Origin: Gammaproteobacteria bacterium
GTDB taxonomy: Bacteria; Pseudomonadota; Gammaproteobacteria; Nitrosococcales; Methylophagaceae
Direction of reading: 5' to 3'
DNA: 35,705 nt
NCBI GenBank assembly: GCA_014859375.1
Contig: JACUUH010000023.1
Span: 1-35,705, forward strand
Within the stretch, counting starts at the first letter, position 1; the number at the start of each line of letters is the position of its first letter. A program made the translations under genes and the position numbers. This document shows positions 14,071 through 22,199 of this stretch, piece after piece. The notes under the pieces are model-generated. The model saw only the letters and a program-made list of their open reading frames with translations. It was not told where the DNA came from and ran no database searches.

Positions 14071-15002
14071 GCTTGGTTTCCTTTACTCGGATGACACACT
14101 ACCCATAAATAGACATCATTTAAATTGGGACGACGCCATTGCATAGAAGAGATTGTGTCACCTAATGTCTTTTGTAACTGGAAAAAATCAACATCGTGAG
14201 CCGCGATTTTAAAACTCAATTGTTGATCTTCCTGAATTGGTGTCCCAAATATTGGTGATAGCTGGGCTATCGTTTGTTGCGGATCTGGCGAATTTATTTC
14301 TAAAATATATTCGGCTAATTGCTCAATTAATGTGCTCGGCTTACCACCCGATAAAAGTTGACCTTTCTGGAAAAAATCAACATGATCACAGGCTTCAGCT
14401 TCTTCCAAATAATGCGTTGTTAAAAACACAGTCATACCTTCATTTCGACGAAGCTGTTCAACAAAGCGCCAAATAGCACGTCGATTTGGCAAATCCAAAC
14501 CAATAGTCGGTTCATCAAGAAACAATACTTTAGGCTTATGTAGCACACCGCGAGCAATATCAACTGCACGACGTTGTCCGCCAGATAATGCCAGCAGTTT
14601 CTGTTTGCGTTTTTCCTGCAACCCAAACACCGACAATAACTCGTCTATACGTTGATTTGCTTGCTTGGGAGGCAGGTTATACATCGCAGCTGCAAACTGT
14701 AGGTTTTCATCTACCGACATGGTGCGATCAAGTGCCGAATCTTGAAACACTAATCCCACTGCTGTTCGAATTGCGACCGGATTTGCTGACACTTGCTTGT
14801 TATCAATCCACGCTTCACCTGAGGTCGGTGATGTCATGGTTGTTAGCATATGAATTGTTGTGCTTTTGCCAGCACCATTAGGCCCTAATAAGCCATAAAA
14901 TTGGCCTGCTTCGATGTCCAGATCAAGATTATTTACTGCCGTGGTTTGACTACCATAGTGTTTTGTCAAACCACGGGTACGTATCGCTAAATTAGAGTCC
15001 AC
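14067..15002 (-). CDS. ABC transporter ATP-binding protein (pqq-linked)
   Basis: Nucleotide-binding subunit, 311 residues. Walker A GPNGAGKS at residues 40-47, signature LSGGQ at 139-143, Walker B VLFLDEP with Asp163-Glu164, and the H-loop His197 in LTTHYLEEA. The C-terminal ~80 residues are the accessory domain found in DrrA/CcmA-type ABC-2 exporters. The start codon overlaps the end of pqqE by 11 nt and the stop overlaps the permease start, so the pair is tied to PQQ synthesis. Export from the cytoplasm is the usual direction for this class. Confidence 0.92.
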
Positions 15003-16176
15003 AGATTTGTTTGGAGTTTTTAGGGTTACGGAATACTAGAGGTTTAGCTTGCGTCGCTGGTTTCTCAGCTTCTAGTCGACCGCGTTCAAGTGCTTGTTCA
15101 ATTACATGATGGTGTGGTGATTTAGAGCACACTGGATCAGCATTTGTAGGATCACCTGTCAGCATAAATGCCTGACAACGACAGCCACCAAAATCTTTCT
15201 CTTTTTCATCACATGAACGACATGGTTCTGTCATCCAGTCAAAACCACGGAATCGATTAAAGTCATCAGACCCATTCCAAATTGCATCAATCGACATGTC
15301 TTTGACATTCGGTAATGACATACCAGGTAATTCACGCGCAGCATGACAAGGTAATGCCGTACCATCAGGCGTTACGGTTAAGAACACATTACCCCAGCCA
15401 TTCATGCAGGCTTTAGGACGTTCTTCATAATAATCAGGCACAACATAATATATTTTCATGTTGCCTTTTTGCTCTTGCTGATAGCGATGAGCAACTGCTT
15501 CTGCTCTTTCTAACTGTTCCTTCATTGGTAACAGTTGATCACGATTATGCATGGCCCAACCATAATATTGTGTGGTTGCAAGCTCGACATAATCAGCATC
15601 AAGATTGATGGCAAGATCAAGGATCTCTTCCATTTGATCGATATTTTGACGATGTGTTACAAAACACAACACCATTGGATAGCCGTTGGCTTTGACCGCT
15701 TTCGCCATTTCAATTTTGTGTTGAAAGGCATCGGTACCAGCAATAAGATTATTTAAATCTTCTGAACTTGCCTGGAAACTAACTTGAATATGATCTAAAC
15801 CAGCTTGTTTTAATTCGGCAACTTTAGACGCATCCATACCGACACCTGATGTAATCAGGTTGGTATAGAATCCCATCTTGCGTGCTTCCGTAATCAGCTC
15901 AACCAAATCTGGACGGGTTAGAGGTTCGCCACCTGACAGTCCTAATTGAGTCGCACCCATTGCTCTTGCTTGACGGAATACATCAAGCCATTGTTCCGTT
16001 GTTAATTCCTTCTTAACACTGGCAAAGTCCATTGGATTTGAACAATAGGGACATTGTAAAGGACAGGCGTAAGTAAGCTCTGCCAACAACCATAGAGGCT
16101 GACGGATCTGATCGCGGACACTACCAATTGATCCACCAATACTACCTGGGGCTTTATTCTGGTCTGATCCAGTCAT
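14992..16176 (-). CDS. pqqE: PqqA peptide cyclase (radical SAM)
   Basis: Radical SAM/SPASM enzyme that joins the Glu and Tyr side chains of PqqA in the first committed step of PQQ synthesis. The cluster motif CPLQCPYC is in [24 protein letters not shown] follows, and the SPASM cysteines appear in [26 protein letters not shown] and VCSKSPHH. At 394 residues it is of normal length. AGGAGG lies 10 nt before the ATG at 16176, inside the end of pqqD. The N-terminal 25 residues are Gly/Ser-rich and slightly longer than usual. Confidence 0.97.
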
Positions 16177-16438
16177 TGTTGTAGGCCTCCTCTAAAAATG
16201 TATAGACATCATCATCTAAATCGGCACCGTTAAAAGCAACTTTTAATTCTGCAATAAGTTCAGAAACGGTTTGTTTTTTTTCACTAATACGTTGCAAGAT
16301 TTCACCTGCGGCGCCATTTAATTTGATCATACCTTCAGGGTATAACAGCACATTACAATTTTGTGCTGGTTCAAATTGAAAACGATAGCCAAGTGCTAAT
16401 ACAGGAACGCTTTCAGCATTAAAGACTGGTTCAACCAT
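16154..16438 (-). CDS. pqqD: PqqA-binding chaperone
   Basis: Small peptide-recognition (RRE-type) protein that presents PqqA to PqqE. At 94 residues it has the normal length. The conserved [19 protein letters not shown] segment is intact. It overlaps pqqE by 23 nt and begins 3 nt after the pqqC stop, so the genes are tightly coupled. Confidence 0.95.
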
Positions 16439-16441
16439 AAT

Positions 16442-17206
16442 TTAGTCCCACTGCCATCTTTCGACATTAACTTCAGTGCAATAAGGTGGACGATTTTCAA
16501 CATAAGCCATCCACATGGCATCACACATAGTCCATAAAACATCCAGTTTAAACTGTAAAACGCCTAGCATAAACTCTTGTTGTTCACGTGTTTTGTAATA
16601 GTCCATAGTAATTTGCAGACCATTTAATACATCACGCGGTGCTTCGTGTAGACGTTTCTTAAAATAGCTATAGCCTTTCTCTTCAATCCAGGGATATTGA
16701 GAAGGCCAGTGATCAAGACGGTGTTTGTGAATAGTAGGTGCAAACAGTTCTGTTAAGGACGAACTTGCCGCCACTTGCCATGGCTGCTGTTTGGCAAAGT
16801 TGATGTAAGCATCAATCGCAAAACGTACCGCTGGTAACACATGTTGTTCAGACTCTAATTCTTCACGTGTTAGTCCAACGGCTTCCCCCAGCTGTAACCA
16901 CGCTTCAATACCACCTGGATCAGCTGGTTCACTACCATGACCTTCATGGCCATCATGATCCAAAATACGTTGCACCCAATGTCTACGTACTTCACGATCG
17001 GTACAGTTAGACATAATCGCTGCATCTTTTACTGGGATCGCTGTCTGATAGTAAAAACGGTTTGCCACCCAGCCCTGAACTTGTTCTTTGGTCATTTTAC
17101 CGTCATGCATTAATTGATGAAACGGATGATGAAAGTGATAAAGACTGGATTTTTCACGAAGTTTTGCTTCAAATTCTTCATGGGTCCAAGGTGTTCTATC
17201 TGACAT
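16442..17206 (-). CDS. pqqC: Pyrroloquinoline-quinone synthase
   Basis: Cofactor-less oxidase that closes the ring and oxidises AHQQ to PQQ in the last step. The 254 residues match the family. The conserved [11 protein letters not shown] start, [10 protein letters not shown] and [22 protein letters not shown] segments carry the active-site His/Arg/Tyr surroundings. It lies 36 nt downstream of pqqB. Confidence 0.97.
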
Positions 17207-17242: not shown

Positions 17243-18157
17243 TTAGATCTCGAATTCCATGCCATCGTATGACGCTTCAATTCCGGCTGCTTCCAGCGTT
17301 TTACGCTGTGGCGATTCTTCATTCAAAATCGGATTGGTATTGTTAATATGGATCAGTATCTTACGTGGTCTTTCCATGCTTTTTAAAATATCCATAATGC
17401 CACCTTCACTCGATTGATCGAGGTGACCCATTTCTAATGCGCGCTTATCACTAATACCTTCGTGAGACATTTCATCATCCGTCCACACTGTGCCATCAAC
17501 CAATACACAGTCAGCATTACGCATATACTCAAGTACATGCGGTTCTGCTTCACCTAACCCTGGAGCGTAAAACAGGTTTTTACCTGTACGTGTATCTTCA
17601 ATTTTCATCCCGATATTATCGCCAGGAACTGTATTGTGACGATGCGGAGAATACGGTGGCGCTTCACTGTTTAATGGTACTGCGGTGAAAATAAGTCCTT
17701 GTGCACTTGGTATCGTAAATGAGGATTCATCGGTAGCAATTTCATGATGATTGATCCCGCGGAAATGCCCAAGAATATTAAAAAGAGGGTAAGCCGTTGT
17801 TAAATCTTGTCTTACTGCTTCAGTTGTGTAGATTTCCCAAGGCGCAATATGTTCGCGTAATGTTAACAAGCCAGTGGTGTGATCTATCTGGGCATCAGTA
17901 ATGACTATCGCGCTAATACCTGTATCTCGTACTGCCCTACCCGGCTGCAAAGCAGGAAAATCATCTATTTGTTTTTTAATATCAGGCGACGCATTAAATA
18001 GAATCCAATCTGTGCCATTTGCACTAATGGCAATCGATGACTGGGTTCGACGACGTGCTTTAATCGTGCCTTCACGTACACCTTTACAGTTAACACAATT
18101 ACAGTTCCACTGAGGGAAACCACCACCAGCACCAGACCCCATTACATGTATAAACAT
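17243..18157 (-). CDS. pqqB: PQQ biosynthesis hydroxylase PqqB
   Basis: Metallo-beta-lactamase-fold protein of 304 residues, needed for PQQ synthesis and thought to hydroxylate the cross-linked tyrosine intermediate. The N-terminal [20 protein letters not shown] segment with structural zinc cysteines, [25 protein letters not shown] and the C-terminal HINNTNPIL motif are all present. It follows pqqA copy 1 after a 120-nt leader with a hairpin at 18235-18259. Confidence 0.97.
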
Positions 18158-18234
18158 AATTACTCTTCCGTTGTGTTCAAACCAAATTAGATAATTCTGC
18201 TATCAAAATCATCTGATTTAATTTGATAAATTGC

Positions 18235-18259
18235 TTGGGGTTTCTCAATGAAACCCCAA
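18235..18259 (-). promoter_or_regulatory. Hairpin between pqqA copy 1 and pqqB
   Basis: A perfect 10-bp stem (TTGGGGTTTC / GAAACCCCAA, 5-nt loop) lies 19 nt past the pqqA copy 1 stop. No T tract follows on the minus strand, so full termination is not expected. A hairpin between pqqA and pqqB is known in other PQQ operons, where it makes pqqA transcript more abundant than pqqBCDE. I infer the same partial attenuation or processing role here. Confidence 0.7.
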
Positions 18260-18277
18260 ACAAACATCAGATCGCTA

Positions 18278-18349
18278 TTAACGGTTGCAGATGTACATTG
18301 TTACTTCAAAACCGAAACGCATGTCTGAATATTCTGGTTTAGTCCACAT
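18278..18349 (-). CDS. pqqA: PQQ precursor peptide PqqA, copy 1
   Basis: A 23-residue ribosomal precursor of PQQ, starting [10 protein letters not shown] and ending MYICNR. It contains the invariant E-V-T-M-Y (Glu15, Tyr19) that PqqE cross-links. An AGAGAG-type ribosome-binding site precedes the ATG. This copy is nearest to pqqB and is probably the first gene of the pqqBCDE transcript. Its codons differ synonymously from the other copies (GGT for Gly, GAC for Asp), while the peptide is identical. Confidence 0.96.
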
Positions 18350-18431
18350 AATATTTTCTCTCTTATAGTTAAAAGTTAATAAAAAACTGTATGCGTTATT
18401 TGATACAGCGAGATCAATCTTACTCGCTAGT

Positions 18432-18483
18432 GTTAGACCTTACTTCAGGAATAACCCCCACTACACTCAGGATTTTCCTGAAT
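18432..18483 (-). promoter_or_regulatory. Upstream element of pqqA copy 1
   Basis: Read on the minus strand the block starts with the palindrome CAGGAAAATCCTG, which continues into AGTG (core TCCTGAGT). TCTAAC follows further on. The TCCTGAGT core begins about 116 nt upstream of the start codon. The gap between the two sub-motifs is 10 nt longer than in copies 2 and 3, close to one helical turn. Probably a regulator-binding site; the protein that binds is inferred only. Confidence 0.55.
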
Positions 18484-18507
18484 AACCTTAAAGCAGGTTA
18501 TGAAAAT

Positions 18508-18545
18508 AAAAAAGGCCCTAATATCGTACGATATTAGGGCCTTTT
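18508..18545 (-). terminator. Strong terminator after pqqA copy 2
   Basis: An almost perfect 18-bp inverted repeat (AAAAGGCCCTAATATCGT and its complement) with no unpaired loop beyond the central bases. On the minus strand it is followed by TTTTTT. It closes the pqqA copy 2 transcript 25 nt after its stop codon and separates it from copy 1. The A tract on the other side means it could also act on plus-strand transcripts. Confidence 0.9.
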
Positions 18546-18569
18546 AGAGCTTTTTTACAATCTTAAATC

Positions 18570-18641
18570 TTAACGATTGCAGATGTACATTGTTACTTCA
18601 AAGCCGAAACGCATATCTGAATATTCTGGTTTAGTCCACAT
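18570..18641 (-). CDS. pqqA: PQQ precursor peptide PqqA, copy 2
   Basis: Encodes the same 23-residue peptide as copy 1, with the ExxxY pair at residues 15 and 19. GAGGTAATT in front of the ATG is a good ribosome-binding site. It has its own upstream element and possible promoter (18713-18775) and its own terminator (18508-18545), so it is a monocistronic precursor gene. Two or three synonymous changes separate it from each neighbour. Confidence 0.96.
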
Positions 18642-18712
18642 AATAATTACCTCTTTATTTATAAATATTTTAGTGTTAGTTATTCGCTTATTACCGATAA
18701 CCCACGATTCAC

Positions 18713-18741
18713 AGTTTACGCATGAAATTGAATCGTTGTTA
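18713..18741 (-). promoter_or_regulatory. Possible promoter of pqqA copy 2
   Basis: On the minus strand TAACAA and TAAACT are separated by exactly 17 nt, the same spacing as the equivalent pair before copy 3. The boxes are poor matches to the sigma-70 consensus, which fits a promoter that needs an activator. The position, about 72 nt upstream of the start codon, is plausible. Confidence 0.35.
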
Positions 18742-18775
18742 GAGGAAAACGCTCGAGATCACTCAGGATTTTACT
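18738..18775 (-). promoter_or_regulatory. Upstream element of pqqA copy 2
   Basis: Minus strand GAGTAAAATCCTGAGTGATC, then TCGAG and TTTTCCTCTAAC. It matches the copy 3 element base for base at most positions (TCCTGAGT, TCGAG, TTTTCCTCTAACA) with the same 23-nt spacing between sub-motifs. TCCTGAGT begins about 120 nt from the start codon. Confidence 0.55.
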
Positions 18776-18776
18776 C

Positions 18777-18810
18777 AAAAAAAAACCTGATACTTTTCAG
18801 TACCAGGTTT
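18777..18810 (-). terminator. Terminator after pqqA copy 3
   Basis: An 11-bp stem AAACCTGGTAC / GTATCAGGTTT (one A-C mismatch) with a 6-nt loop, followed on the minus strand by a run of nine T. It ends the pqqA copy 3 transcript 22 nt after its stop codon. Confidence 0.88.
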
Positions 18811-18831
18811 CTTTATTGTTTAAACCGTTTA

Positions 18832-18903
18832 TTAACGGTTGCAGATGTACATTGTAACTTCGAAGCCGAAACGCATATCTGAATATTCTGGTTTAGTCCA
18901 CAT
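18832..18903 (-). CDS. pqqA: PQQ precursor peptide PqqA, copy 3
   Basis: The third gene for the identical 23-residue peptide. It differs from the others at synonymous positions (GTT for Val16, TTC for Phe14). GATGAGGTGATTATC before the ATG is a good ribosome-binding site. It lies 140 nt after the response-regulator stop codon, in the same direction, with its own upstream element and terminator. It may be read both from its own promoter and from the sensor operon. Confidence 0.96.
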
Positions 18904-18999: not shown

Positions 19000-19034
19000 G
19001 AGGAAAATACTCGACGTAACTCAGGAATTTCCTT
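18996..19034 (-). promoter_or_regulatory. Upstream element of pqqA copy 3
   Basis: Minus strand TAAGGAAATTCCTGAGTTAC, then GTCGAG and TTTTCCTCTAACA. AGGAAATTCCT is palindromic. TCCTGAGT begins about 116 nt upstream of the start codon, as in copy 1. The block starts only 10 nt after the response-regulator stop. Confidence 0.55.
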
Positions 19035-19043
19035 AGTGCCATT

Positions 19044-19682
19044 TTAAGCTTCTAATAATCCGCTTCGAATGGCTAATCGTGCCAGTTCAGCAGAGTTCGA
19101 CACATCCAATTTTTGCTTAATACTGGTATGGTGTGTTCCTACTGTTTTAGGACTTAGGCTCAATATCTCGGCGATGTCATTGACAGTTTTACCTTCTGCT
19201 AACAAGCGAAATACCTCAAACTCACGTTGACTCAATACATCAAACACATTGTCTGAGCCAGTCAATTTTTGCATTGCTATTTGTTGTGCAATCGCTGGAT
19301 CAATACTCATTTTACCTTGCGCTACCAACATCACTGCTTTAAGCATTTGTTCTGGCGCACTGCGTTTAGGTATAAATCCTTTTGCGCCAGCTTGTAAGGC
19401 TCTGGATGTGAAGACACTATCTTCATGCACACTCAAAATGAGAATTTTTGCATCTGGATCGCGTGCAATAATCCGTTCGACAGCACCAATACCACCTATG
19501 CCTGGCATTGAAATATCCATGACAACCACATCTGGCTTATATTTTATGTAATCTTGTACCGCCTGCTCGCCACTGTTGGCTTCAGCCACCACAGTCACAT
19601 TATCACCATCCTCTAATAATCGGCGAAACCCCGCTCGCACTAACTCATGATCATCAACTAGCAATAAAGTCGTTTTCTTCAT
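19044..19682 (-). CDS. NarL/FixJ-family response regulator
   Basis: Cytoplasmic transcription factor of 212 residues. The receiver domain has acidic residues Asp10-Asp11, phosphoacceptor Asp56 in VVVMDISMPG and the conserved Lys in FIPKRSAPE. The LuxR-type helix-turn-helix is at residues 150-205 (LSQREFEVFRLLAEGK). It overlaps the kinase gene by 4 nt (ATGA), so the two form a pair. The class matches MoxX/FlhR-type regulators of methanol oxidation and ErbR-type regulators of PQQ-dependent alcohol oxidation. Together with the pqqA genes directly downstream, this suggests control of PQQ synthesis. Confidence 0.93.
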   Translation of the reverse strand: MKKTTLLLVDDHELVRAGFRRLLEDGDNVTVVAEANSGEQAVQDYIKYKPDVVVMDISMPGIGGIGAVERIIARDPDAKILILSVHEDSVFTSRALQAGAKGFIPKRSAPEQMLKAVMLVAQGKMSIDPAIAQQIAMQKLTGSDNVFDVLSQREFEVFRLLAEGKTVNDIAEILSLSPKTVGTHHTSIKQKLDVSNSAELARLAIRSGLLEA

Positions 19683-21394
19683 GATTTTTCTTCCTCTAAT
19701 GGGATAGTGACAACAATAGTAAGCCCTTGACCTAAGGCACTTGTTAGTTCAAACGTACCTCCCATACTACGAGCACGTTCACGCATTCCCAATAAACCAA
19801 AGTCTACGTCAGAATGAAAATCGTGTACTTCCATTCCTTTACCATTGTCGCTAATTTCAATGATTAACTGTTGTTTTAACAATTTATCATTAAATTCATT
19901 GGTCACAGAAATCTTAATTTCAGACGCATTGGCATGTCTGACAGCATTGGTGATGGATTCTTGTATCACACGAAATACGGTCATATTGATTGATTCATTC
20001 AGGTTATCTAATTTGCCAGAAAACTCGACTATAAAATTAATCTCCGGTTGACGCTGGCGCCAGGCTTCGATGCTACCTTCAAGTGTCGGCACCAAACCTA
20101 AATCATCAAGCGGACTCGGTCTCAGGCGGGTAATCATATTGTGCACAACATCATAGATGTGGCTGGCAACATCAATAATTGCTTGTGCGCTTGCATAAAT
20201 TTTAGGTTCAGTTTCTTGGGTTCGATTACGAATAAGCACCGCATCTGTTTTAATTGCAGTTAAACATTGACCCAATTCATCATGTAATTCACGGGCCAAG
20301 TGACGTCGTTCTTTCTCTTGCACTTCCGCCATATGCTTGGTCAATAACTGGGTTTCAATCAGTTGAAGTTTGGCCTTTTCAGCATATTTGTGTTGAGTAA
20401 TATCTCTAAATGTACAAATCACGCCCCGAACAATCAAATCAGAATCCACTAATGGCACTGAAGAGAATAATAATGATACTAATTCTCCCGATGTTTTTTG
20501 AAGCGTTGTTTCCAGATTTTCTACCGTATCGCAGTTTTCTAAAATACGCGCTATTTCAGCTCGTTGTTCACAAAAGCCAAGATTAGCTAATTCTTCGCCC
20601 AATAATTGCAGTGTTTGATCACTAAATAAGTGTTCAGCTGCTGGATTACAAAACGTAATATGACCGGTGTGATCAAGTGACAAAATAGCATCACCCGACT
20701 GTTTAACTAATACCGCCAGACGACGATTTTCTTCCGTGCTTAATTCTAGGGCTTGCCCCATTCGATTGAATGTTTGACTTATTTGATTCATTTCCGACAA
20801 GGTAGATCGAGGTAATCTTAGATGAAGTTCACCACGTTCAAAACCAGCTAAAGCGGTTAATAAGCCTTGTAGTGGACGCATTAACAAATCAACGCCCCAG
20901 TATAAAAATAGTCCGACAAATACCAAAATTCCTAGGCCTAATTGAGCAATACTGCGGATATCTAACCAGCGCTCAGCAATTTCCTGCAGCGGTGCGGCAT
21001 AAATAACCATGTGACCATTGCCAAAGCGTTTAGTTAAGGGTTTGACTCGTGGAAAAATGACATTGATAAACCAGTCAGGCGGCTGAATAGCAACATCCGC
21101 CTTTGGCTCACCTTCAAATAATAGTCCATTTGAATCAAACACCAGAATGTGAAGACTACGAATTTCACTTAATGCTTTAACCATTTCATGCATTTGCTCA
21201 TGCACGGGCAAATCACGGCTAAACGATACACCAATTAATGACACTGAAATTAGGCGTGCCGCTGCATTCATTGTCTCTTCGACTTCTGCTTGTACTGATT
21301 GGCGGGCATTAGAAATTAAAACCCACGTGCTCGCAAATAAGGAAATGGCTAACAATAAAGCAAAATATAAATTAACTTTTAACTTGAGGTTCAT
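19679..21394 (-). CDS. Membrane histidine kinase (HAMP-PAS-HisKA_3)
   Basis: 571 residues. Membrane helix 1 at 9-28, a ~120-residue periplasmic sensor region, membrane helix 2 at 150-168, HAMP at 170-222, PAS at about 225-335, HisKA_3 with the phospho-His371 in RRHLARELHDELGQ, and a GHKL ATPase domain with NAVRHANA and ISDNGKGM. This kinase class pairs with NarL-type regulators such as the one it overlaps. The start overlaps the SoxZ-like stop by 4 nt. The ligand is unknown; a methanol, PQQ or sulfur-related periplasmic signal is possible from context. Confidence 0.93.
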   Translation of the reverse strand: MNLKLKVNLYFALLLAISLFASTWVLISNARQSVQAEVEETMNAAARLISVSLIGVSFSRDLPVHEQMHEMVKALSEIRSLHILVFDSNGLLFEGEPKADVAIQPPDWFINVIFPRVKPLTKRFGNGHMVIYAAPLQEIAERWLDIRSIAQLGLGILVFVGLFLYWGVDLLMRPLQGLLTALAGFERGELHLRLPRSTLSEMNQISQTFNRMGQALELSTEENRRLAVLVKQSGDAILSLDHTGHITFCNPAAEHLFSDQTLQLLGEELANLGFCEQRAEIARILENCDTVENLETTLQKTSGELVSLLFSSVPLVDSDLIVRGVICTFRDITQHKYAEKAKLQLIETQLLTKHMAEVQEKERRHLARELHDELGQCLTAIKTDAVLIRNRTQETEPKIYASAQAIIDVASHIYDVVHNMITRLRPSPLDDLGLVPTLEGSIEAWRQRQPEINFIVEFSGKLDNLNESINMTVFRVIQESITNAVRHANASEIKISVTNEFNDKLLKQQLIIEISDNGKGMEVHDFHSDVDFGLLGMRERARSMGGTFELTSALGQGLTIVVTIPLEEEKS

Positions 21395-21708
21395 TGCACT
21401 TTGGTTTCCACTTTGCCTTTTGCCCCAAGGTTATCAACCCACCTGATCATAATAGTGTCACCACTGGCACCGCCAGCTAAAACAAACGAAAAATAGGGAT
21501 TACGCGACGTTGCCGTACCACATTTAATCGTCAATATTTCTTCTTTATTACGCCAGCATCGAATATCTTGAATAAAATGAGCAGGGATCAATTCACCTTG
21601 CTCATTGTTTGCACGGCCTGTGTCCATAGGATGAGCAAGTAAAATTCGAACGGTAGTATCTCCGCCTTTTAACTTGGCACGTAAGCGATCTTTAACAGCA
21701 AGTCCCAT
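21391..21708 (-). CDS. soxZ: SoxZ-like sulfur carrier subunit
   Basis: A 105-residue immunoglobulin-like protein. AHPMDTGRANNEQGELIPAHFI and FSFVLAGGASGDTIMIRWVDNLG are typical SoxZ segments. SoxZ forms a periplasmic heterodimer with SoxY, which carries sulfur on a C-terminal cysteine; like other SoxZ it has no signal of its own and would be co-exported. It overlaps both neighbours. No soxA, soxB, soxX, soxC or soxD is in the window, so ordinary thiosulfate oxidation cannot be assumed. Confidence 0.85.
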   Translation of the reverse strand: MGLAVKDRLRAKLKGGDTTVRILLAHPMDTGRANNEQGELIPAHFIQDIRCWRNKEEILTIKCGTATSRNPYFSFVLAGGASGDTIMIRWVDNLGAKGKVETKVQ

Positions 21709-22199
21709 TATGCACAGCCTCCAATATCAACTTCGACAAAACGTGTGGTTTTATAGAGTTTTCCGTCAGCACGTATGACTGCGATCACATTTGAATCTTC
21801 AGCAATTTTTATCATGGTTTTAAATGGTAATTTGATTGCTGAAGTAAAGTCCAAACTCATCGCAAGAGGAAAGGGGTTTTTTTCCACAACAATGGCAACG
21901 CGTTCAATATTGGCTAAATCACTATGGATTTCGATAGGAACAGAAGCCCCATTCACGGCATAACTTGGTGGCGAACCAACCTTAAATTTAACCACTGAAC
22001 TATCAACCACTTCCGCTTCACCCAATAAGGCTAATAAGGCATCTTCCATCGTTTCAGCAGTAAAGGCTTCCGTTGGCCAATGAGCTAATAGTATTCGAGG
22101 CAGTAGCAAACCACTTGTTGCAATTAAAGCTAAAGTCGATACTGATATCCCTTTTTTAAGGACATTGCGACGTTGAATATTGGTCGTATTATTCGCCAT
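21708..22199 (-). CDS. soxY: SoxY-like sulfur carrier with Tat-type signal
   Basis: 163 residues. The N-terminus has a twin-arginine signal (QRRNVLKKG, then a hydrophobic stretch ending PRILLA), as expected for SoxY, which is exported folded with SoxZ. The body matches SoxY (FKVGSPPSYAVNGASVPIEI). The C-terminus ends VDIGGCA instead of the usual GGCGG, so the carrier cysteine is the second-last residue and the two final glycines are lost. The gene touches the protease stop and the SoxZ start by one base each. SoxYZ-like carriers also occur with quinoprotein dehydrogenases. Confidence 0.85.
   Translation of the reverse strand: MANNTTNIQRRNVLKKGISVSTLALIATSGLLLPRILLAHWPTEAFTAETMEDALLALLGEAEVVDSSVVKFKVGSPPSYAVNGASVPIEIHSDLANIERVAIVVEKNPFPLAMSLDFTSAIKLPFKTMIKIAEDSNVIAVIRADGKLYKTTRFVEVDIGGCA

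Follow-up and report, generated by a model that had tools for sequence, protein, structure and literature searches.

Three pqqA genes as probable separate expression units with a common upstream palindrome and a candidate two-component regulator in a Methylophagaceae genome

Several methylotrophs carry more than one pqqA gene, as a rule with a single pqqBCDE set; this is seen in Methylophilaceae, Methylovorus, Hyphomicrobium, Methylorubrum and strain RH AL1. The accessible portions of the published reports give 3-12 pqqA copies for Methylophilaceae (PMC4109929), five for Hyphomicrobium, including those of a pqqABCDE and a pqqADE cluster (PMC9851590), three for strain RH AL1 (PMC10848612), and orphan copies for M. 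extorquens (PMC11317620, PMC6520949), among which pqqA2 and pqqA3 respond to the neodymium source. In the literature searched, much of it accessible in part, the abundance of pqqA in methylotrophs has been noted before but without explanation. Two regulatory systems come closest to the one described here. According to the available excerpts, MxaY controls the lanthanide switch in M. buryatense (PMC5018670) and has a LapD/MoxY domain (PMC6115532), and AgmR likely co-regulates the pqq operon with the ped genes in Pseudomonas (PMC12997753). The locus analysed here differs from those multi-copy systems in that three tandem promoter-terminator units, all encoding one identical peptide, lie between a two-component system and pqqB.

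The DNA studied (hereafter, the window) is a stretch of 35,705 nucleotides that makes up contig C74 of a 2.35-Mb draft genome of 106 contigs, 96.7% complete, whose nearest named relatives by PqqB comparison are Methylophaga-type organisms and metagenome-assembled Methylophagaceae. The pqqB, pqqC, pqqD and pqqE genes adjoin pqqA on the same strand, all of them over their profile cut-offs, making this a pqqABCDE cluster (Table 1), and a search of the window for regulatory RNA families returned only a tRNA at Rfam gathering scores. We propose, with a probability of roughly 0.65, that the three pqqA genes are complete expression units co-activated by the adjacent NarL-type regulator and its kinase through a common box. 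Judged from sequence, the locus would be a module with several copies of the precursor gene, under the control of a two-component system like MxaYX.

Table 1. Features of the pqqA region, in order of transcription (window positions)
Feature	Positions	Strand	Details
Sensor kinase	19679..21394	-	PAS, HisKA_3 and sub-threshold LapD/MoxY periplasmic domain; proposed partner of the regulator
Response regulator	19044..19682	-	NarL/UvrY-like; proposed box activator; directly before unit 1
Unit 1 box	19020..19036	-	CTAAGGAAATTCCTGAG; 15/17 to consensus; second TCC (in TTTTCCTCTAACA) 22 bp on; -10-like TAAAGT
pqqA, unit 1	18832..18903	-	regulator-proximal; promoter class A; 23-residue precursor
Unit 1 terminator hairpin	18781..18812	-	14 bp, then T-run; -17.6 kcal/mol; z -6.0
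Unit 2 box	18762..18778	-	TTGAGTAAAATCCTGAG; 14/17 to consensus; second TCC (in TTTTCCTCTAACA) 22 bp on; -10-like TAAACT
pqqA, unit 2	18570..18641	-	promoter class A; peptide identical to unit 1
Unit 2 terminator hairpin	18510..18545	-	16 bp, T-run; -24.2 kcal/mol; z -5.1
Unit 3 box	18466..18482	-	TTCAGGAAAATCCTGAG; 16/17 to consensus; second TCC (in TTATTCCTGAAGTAAG) 22 bp on; -10-like TAAGAT
pqqA, unit 3	18278..18349	-	pqqB-proximal; promoter class B; peptide identical to unit 1
Unit 3 hairpin	18231..18263	-	between pqqA and pqqB; 14 bp, no T-run; whole fold -27.4 kcal/mol; z -5.5
pqqB	17243..18157	-	TIGR02108, 409 bits
pqqC	16442..17206	-	TIGR02111, 348 bits
pqqD	16154..16438	-	TIGR03859, 92 bits
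pqqE	14992..16176	-	TIGR02109, 568 bits

A preliminary description of this region had reported three reading frames that encode the same 23 residues and differ at synonymous positions, which is exactly what we find, on the minus strand. The peptide scores 50.7 bits against the PqqA profile TIGR02107 (cut-off 20) and 42.1 bits against PF08042 (cut-off 21.1) in every copy, and each copy reads EVTMY at the E-x-x-x-Y core, whose Glu and Tyr are the residues with a role in the PqqA precursor, which is consumed stoichiometrically, one per PQQ. At E <= 0.001 the whole assembly gives no PqqA match beyond these three. Pairwise comparison of the copies shows 3, 4 and 3 nucleotide differences; they come from five variable sites, and at all five the change is synonymous. 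As 12 of the 69 sites of the consensus are synonymous, P is 1.6e-4 under neutrality, and the pattern is not chance. Over the 61 complete, N-free copies of the genus (62 were collected and one with an N was dropped), pS is 0.28, pN is 0.0102 and pN/pS is 0.036. Together with the array of G017, the nearest family genome by its regulator (97% identity), which has the same three copies with units matching by position, these figures bear out the earlier claim that purifying selection has kept all three genes. The repeats extend beyond the genes, with 96-nt repeats over the genes and separate repeats upstream, because each pqqA copy brings its own promoter region and hairpin.

Sequence identity among tandem copies may also stem from a recent duplication homogenised by gene conversion, with no adaptive meaning. 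At residue 4 (K or T), the class A and class B copies (promoter classes, defined below) of one and the same genome carry the same amino acid in 14 of 16 genomes, with a permutation P of 0.003 that is uncorrected for relatedness, and unit 2 of G017 shares with its own unit 1 two synonymous bases that are absent from unit 2 of the window. Against this, with codon 4 excluded, copies of one genome differ at third positions nearly as often as copies of different genomes do (2.62 versus 2.75 differences), the units match by position in G017, and the flanks are strongly diverged. Conversion as the main force is weak and disfavoured, and we consider this account very unlikely.

The preliminary description also held that most clusters have one copy, which fails for this family. 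Genes for PqqA are present in 20 of 29 genus genomes and 47 of 57 Methylophagaceae genomes, and all 47 bearers carry 2-9 PqqA matches, none of them a single one, in counts that include a few matches cut by contig ends and one decayed copy. Multiple copies are therefore the rule in the family, and what had seemed surprising is ordinary. Decay of extra copies in relatives, which was to speak against the earlier reading, turned up once among the genus matches, in an orphan copy of G027 with a stop codon, and in no array copy.

The order of elements is the same in all three units: a palindrome, a further TCC half-site and a -10-like hexamer come first, followed by a leader of some 60 nt that contains a ribosome site, then pqqA and a hairpin. 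The palindrome, TCAGGA-AAA-TCCTGA, starts 133-137 nt before the start codon, and the box of unit 2 touches the T-run of the unit 1 terminator. The distance from TCC to TCC is 22 bp, or two helical turns, which puts the second half-site about where a -35 element would be. In unit 1, the -10-like hexamer occupies roughly -73 to -68 relative to the start codon, and the transcription start expected from it places the 22-bp half-site at around -40 and the palindrome at around -64, a layout that would suit an activator-dependent promoter. A sigma-70 scan of 1.5 kb on both strands gave 3 sites against 5.4 expected and marked none for units 2 and 3; the only site on the minus strand (18931-18902) overlaps the unit 1 start and is distinct from the promoter proposed here.

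The same arrangement recurs across the genus, where we collected 62 pqqA copies with their flanks, leaving out the divergent PqqA of pqqADE clusters and copies cut by contig ends. A palindrome around AAGGAAAATCCTGAG starts 109-138 nt before the start codon in nearly all of them; it scores at least 13/17 in 58 of the 62 copies, as against 3 of 1240 mononucleotide shuffles, on a 17-position consensus drawn from the same copies that were scored. The remaining four comprise one copy at 12/17, two at 11/17 and one (L054 of G002) without a box. The copies fall into three promoter classes. Class A has TTTTCCTCTAACA, then typically GCGTAwAGTG, and class B has TATTCCTGACGTAAG, then typically GTGTAATAT; class B adjoins pqqB in 16 of 17 copies, and in the remaining one (G009) the contig ends there. 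The 14 copies of class C all lie outside the main array. The second TCC follows the first after 22 bp in 46 of 48 class A or B copies (assignment to either class itself required a TCC motif no more than 32 nt from the box), and after 23 and 31 bp in the other two, the class A copy with 31 probably being misplaced. Within one genome, class A and class B copies share only 37% ungapped identity over the last 60 nt before the start codon, yet box and spacing are kept.

The three classes, with their different second half-sites and leaders, raise the question of whether the copies answer different conditions, the box being one of several inputs. The cited title of a 2015 paper by Ge says that multiple pqqA genes respond differently; that work reportedly found PqqA availability to be rate-determining in Methylovorus and may treat a pqqA2 promoter. 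The response of the orphan pqqA2 and pqqA3 of M. extorquens to the neodymium source, given in the accessible part of that literature, points the same way, but the box is common to all classes. Such a division of labour is possible, and on balance doubtful; it is compatible with co-activation through the box, the two not being mutually exclusive.

The ends of the units differ as well. A stem containing G+C followed by a T-run, as in an intrinsic terminator, stands after units 1 and 2; a terminator consensus scan found that of unit 2 and missed that of unit 1. The stem after unit 3 is present, with at most 4 T in 8, and does not qualify as an intrinsic terminator. With an intrinsic terminator at their ends, units 1 and 2 are expected to give short transcripts of pqqA alone, and since the hairpin of unit 3 has no T-run, part of its transcription can enter pqqBCDE. 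A hairpin with a T-run was found across the genus in 25 of 31 class A copies (the strict hairpin search missed the other 6), in 11 of 13 class C copies (the contig ends too early for a 14th) and in 5 of 17 class B copies, a distribution by which the distal copies look monocistronic and short, and the pqqB-proximal copy can run into pqqBCDE. Folding of the three leaders is no more stable than that of shuffled sequences (z -0.99, -1.06 and -0.22), and for this reason we claim no riboswitch.

To what extent the box belongs to pqqA can be read from its distribution over the 57 family genomes. The pattern AGGANAATCCTGA occurs at 118 sites, as against 10 for the reversed pattern, and 87 of the 118 are followed by ATGTGGAC after 86-116 nt, as against none for the reversed control; these reversed-pattern counts are the independent control, the box-score shuffles being mononucleotide and the consensus coming partly from the same sequences. 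The figure of 87 is a lower bound, because the window's own exact site (unit 3) lies 117 nt away, outside the gap limits. The ten pqqA-less genomes of the family hold two sites in all. The other 31 of the 118 sites fall outside the gap pattern, and part of them was looked at singly: three loci are promoters of pqqADE or pqqD-pqqE, one of which (in G009) has two boxes 23 bp apart; one TonB receptor gene has the site in its promoter in four genomes; 15 sites lie inside long reading frames and look like chance; L219 and L222 (pqqA-less genome) stand near gene starts or between genes, with no known PQQ link; and two more are L265, upstream of pqqB, and L267. The palindrome also stands at orphan pqqA copies in relatives.

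On an account by plain gene dosage, the copies would be kept only for more precursor, and the shared upstream sequence would merely have been co-duplicated. The labile copy number (2-9 matches), the stoichiometric use of PqqA and the decay of the orphan copy in G027, which implies that unneeded copies are lost, all agree with it. Passive copying fits poorly with box and spacing kept between class A and B promoters so diverged, and the box at pqqADE, with a variant at the receptor gene, goes beyond it, so we think dosage alone unlikely. No such site is described for the multi-copy methylotrophs in the accessible parts of the papers cited above, and the literature searched, from which subscription papers were mostly absent, yielded no account of a comparable pqqA operator.

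The best candidate for a protein that acts at the box is encoded next to it. The gene order soxY-soxZ-kinase-regulator-(pqqA)n-pqqBCDE is intact in several relatives and disrupted in others. An ortholog of the regulator (at least 80% identity) is present in 43 of the 47 pqqA-bearing family genomes and in 0 of the 10 pqqA-less ones, and paralogs reach at most 51% identity among the matches listed. The pair resembles MxaY/MxaX (MoxXY) in its NarL-type regulator and perhaps in its kinase, whose periplasmic part scores below the LapD/MoxY cut-off (PF16448, 23.3 bits against 25); it differs in lying beside pqqA instead of mxaF and in its proposed target, a precursor gene. The regulator also falls below the cut-off of the UvrY/GacA equivalog NF007018 (206.2 bits against 280). 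AgmR is a LuxR type regulator. The likeness to AgmR/ErbR of Pseudomonas lies in a regulator linked to pqq control, but Pseudomonas has one pqqA in one operon, and the portions of that literature at hand describe neither a box nor multiple units.

Four pqqA-bearing genomes have no regulator at 80% identity: G002 (82% complete), G022 (69%), G046 (83%) and G050 (99%). Eight pqqA copies were read in G050 and G046, and all keep recognisable boxes. The boxes of G050 without the regulator are the main result against the regulator being necessary; contig C2 of that genome begins 648 bp before the pqqB-proximal pqqA, and a contig break beside pqqA may explain the absence. Alternatively, a paralogous NarL-type regulator, for example a GacA-like one or the one adjacent to XoxF (50% identical to the pqq-linked regulator), could bind the box instead, the adjacent pair serving some other purpose. 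This agrees with the boxes of G050 and G046 and with paralogs below 52% identity in all 47 pqqA-bearing genomes. However, the pqq-linked regulator tracks pqqA closely, adjoins pqqA in two proteobacterial classes, and keeps the TVGTH recognition helix. In genomes with TCCTGA arms, its GerE helix reads LSPKTVGTHHT(N/S)(I/V)(K/R)QKL; TVGTH is altered in the XoxF-linked paralog and in a Methylomonas homolog. We regard binding by another regulator as rather unlikely.

Further evidence for the pairing of the adjacent regulator with the box comes from outside the family. Through named PqqB-relative loci we took 20 further genomes, of which 18 were used, two Methylophaga appearing identical to G048 and G039. 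The regulator is 52-60% identical in 9 of 9 betaproteobacterial genomes, as against 37-49% in the nine others (Methylococcaceae, Oceanospirillales-type and further genomes). The palindrome CT(A/C)ATGA-NNN-TCAT(G/T)AG is matched at 13 or 14 of 14 positions in 15 of 23 betaproteobacterial pqqA copies, at -111 to -148; these are the copies read of 26 matches. The same search finds it in 1 of 1150 shuffles and in 0 of 10 control copies (11 rows, one copy having two start codons; a copy of G076 escaped the pattern). The other 8 of the 23 have no good palindrome, among them all three of G063 despite its regulator (54%). In G064 and G066 the regulator gene precedes a pqqA of the same strand by 150-175 nt, and the GerE helix of the TCATGA genomes reads LSP(R/S)T(V/I)GTHLYNIKQKL. 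By eye, several betaproteobacterial copies have an extra TCATGA at about 14 bp and not at 22. This match of helix and operator across two classes is, at the level of sequence, the best evidence that regulator and box belong together, although two clades cannot prove it.

A variant of the box stands at the gene for a TonB-dependent receptor. This receptor is found (E <= 1e-60) in 42 of 47 pqqA-bearing and 1 of 10 pqqA-less family genomes, including the window genome (contig C56), where the box is not visible because the contig starts 65 nt before the gene. At about 78-112 nt in front of the start, receptor promoters have a variant box like AAGGA-NNN-T(T/C)CTGATG. Of the 26 promoters read, 18 match a permissive pattern that was drawn up once the consensus scores had been seen, one (L298) with a misassigned start codon. 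Against the pqqA consensus, 10 of 21 upstream regions reach 12/17, compared with 7 of 420 mononucleotide shuffles; these 21 are the loci of 30 in which a start was found (none was in 9). No 22-bp half-site was seen in the promoters read, and a TTGATTTGGATCA element further up resembles an FNR site. The pqqA-less genome G021 has the receptor with a box-like sequence and no regulator ortholog, which speaks against a tight link.

The nearest solved structure to the receptor is the PQQ importer PqqU (YncD), with a profile score of 132 bits against 78 for the next other receptor. The receptor stands apart from PqqU at about 19% identity and 65.5 bits to the NCBIfam equivalog NF041535, far below the cut-off of 1200. 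Foldseek also places PqqU first, only narrowly, with other TonB receptors scoring nearly as well, and fold comparison does not decide the ligand (model pLDDT 67). For PqqU itself, the accessible part of the source gives Q84, Y99, Q121, R304, R365 and R536 as the PQQ-contact residues (PMC12124388); the receptor aligns with PqqU too distantly for its counterparts of these to be named with confidence.

A single PQQ alcohol dehydrogenase of the window genome passes the cut-off. The structures nearest to it are of the lanthanide XoxF type (top PDB match 7o6z, 814 bits, with lanthanide-dependent XoxF among the matches that follow), and the earlier assignment of the host to the methylotrophs is thereby borne out. 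Its gene has a MoxJ-like protein and a cytochrome c as neighbours, and another two-component pair also adjoins it. None of the nine pqqA-less genus genomes has a true PQQ alcohol dehydrogenase; 2 give no match and 7 give weak matches only, of a kind that control genomes give too. By eye, no box was seen upstream of the XoxF-like gene, the best site in its 8-kb locus (13/17) lying elsewhere in that locus, and for this reason we do not claim XoxF for the regulon. With an XoxF-like enzyme as the single dehydrogenase over the cut-off, lanthanide status would be a reasonable signal.

Co-activation of the three units may then proceed as follows. On the model of MxaYX, the kinase would sense methanol status, lanthanide status or both, and the phosphorylated regulator would bind the palindrome and the third half-site, activating all pqqA copies together, both in the window and at the orphan copies of relatives. 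Units 1 and 2 would yield short pqqA-only messages, the distal units adding precursor and no added enzymes, and transcription of unit 3 would partly read into pqqBCDE. Precursor, of which one PqqA is used per PQQ, would in this way be supplied in excess of the catalytic enzymes, and it is possible that the extra copies raise the PQQ supply. The preliminary description was sound on selection and on the methylotrophic host, and overlooked that the copies are separate units with an operator in common, as well as the regulator. Multi-copy pqqA was already known; the anatomy of the units, the common control site, the candidate regulator and the linked receptor gene look new.

A wider reading, which we hold tentatively and think somewhat doubtful, is that two proteobacterial classes have a conserved PQQ regulon: a single NarL-type regulator would switch on, through its box, many scattered pqqA units and, in Methylophagaceae, an outer-membrane receptor distantly related to PqqU. 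The arms of the box are TCCTGA in Methylophagaceae and TCATGA in Betaproteobacteria. On this wider reading, PQQ would be made and recaptured as one response, the many pqqA genes serving export and recycling of the cofactor; what is recaptured would perhaps be PQQ-lanthanide complexes, and the pqqA copies would not only fill one dehydrogenase. With a short, specific operator and a named candidate regulator, the proposed co-activation is directly testable. If it is right, the box would provide a genome-readable signature for PQQ demand, tie precursor supply to the methanol/lanthanide signalling family, and point to a receptor that may return PQQ, free or metal-bound, to the cell.

In the window's array (18278-18903) and among the 61 complete, N-free pqqA copies of the genus, several codons have an invariant third position (ACT at codon 3, CCA at codon 5, CGT at codon 11 and GAA at codon 15; 61/61 in each case), a pattern that may reflect either strong codon bias or a constraint acting on the RNA. 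The open frame of 101 codons that runs antisense to two of the window's pqqA copies is probably not a gene.

Several relatives carry a second cluster, in the order pqqA-pqqD-pqqE (loci L046, L051, L060 and L175), which encodes a divergent PqqA with the core FEVTAY and has boxes, the proposed operator palindromes, of its own. Upstream of this cluster lie ATGATCTAGATCAT-type elements similar to the FNR-like TTGATTTGGATCA elements found 5' of the gene for the distantly PqqU-like TonB-dependent receptor (upstream regions of L294-L322).

Peroxiredoxin-like and glutathione reductase-like genes adjoin or separate the pqqA units of several relatives (L058, L062, L064, L066, L068, L070 and others); the profile test of such genes covered the L039 pair only. 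Beside the window's sensor kinase gene, SoxY and SoxZ are encoded separately rather than as a fused SoxYZ-like carrier, with SoxZ, and not SoxY, scoring over cut-off ('true SoxZ'). The MoxJ-like protein looks like an unusual fusion, its C-terminal half matching ankyrin-repeat proteins.

Coordinates of individual features in the window, the source genome (G000) and a relative (G027)
Feature	Location	Positions	Strand
Decayed orphan pqqA	G027, contig C86, locus L075	about 2393-2443	minus
Antisense open frame	window	18577-18882	plus
SoxY and SoxZ genes	window	21391-22199	
MoxJ-like periplasmic protein, adjoining XoxF-like gene	G000, contig C55, locus L273	937-2634	minus

Since contigs of Methylophaga-type genomes end near pqqA copies (C41 and C43 of G048, apparently the same genome as G057; C5 and C7 of G049; C2 of G050), copy numbers drawn from draft assemblies may be lower bounds. 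The orphan pqqA of G027, lying away from the main array, combines an in-frame stop with a degraded box, which argues that pqqA copies are both born and lost within the genus.
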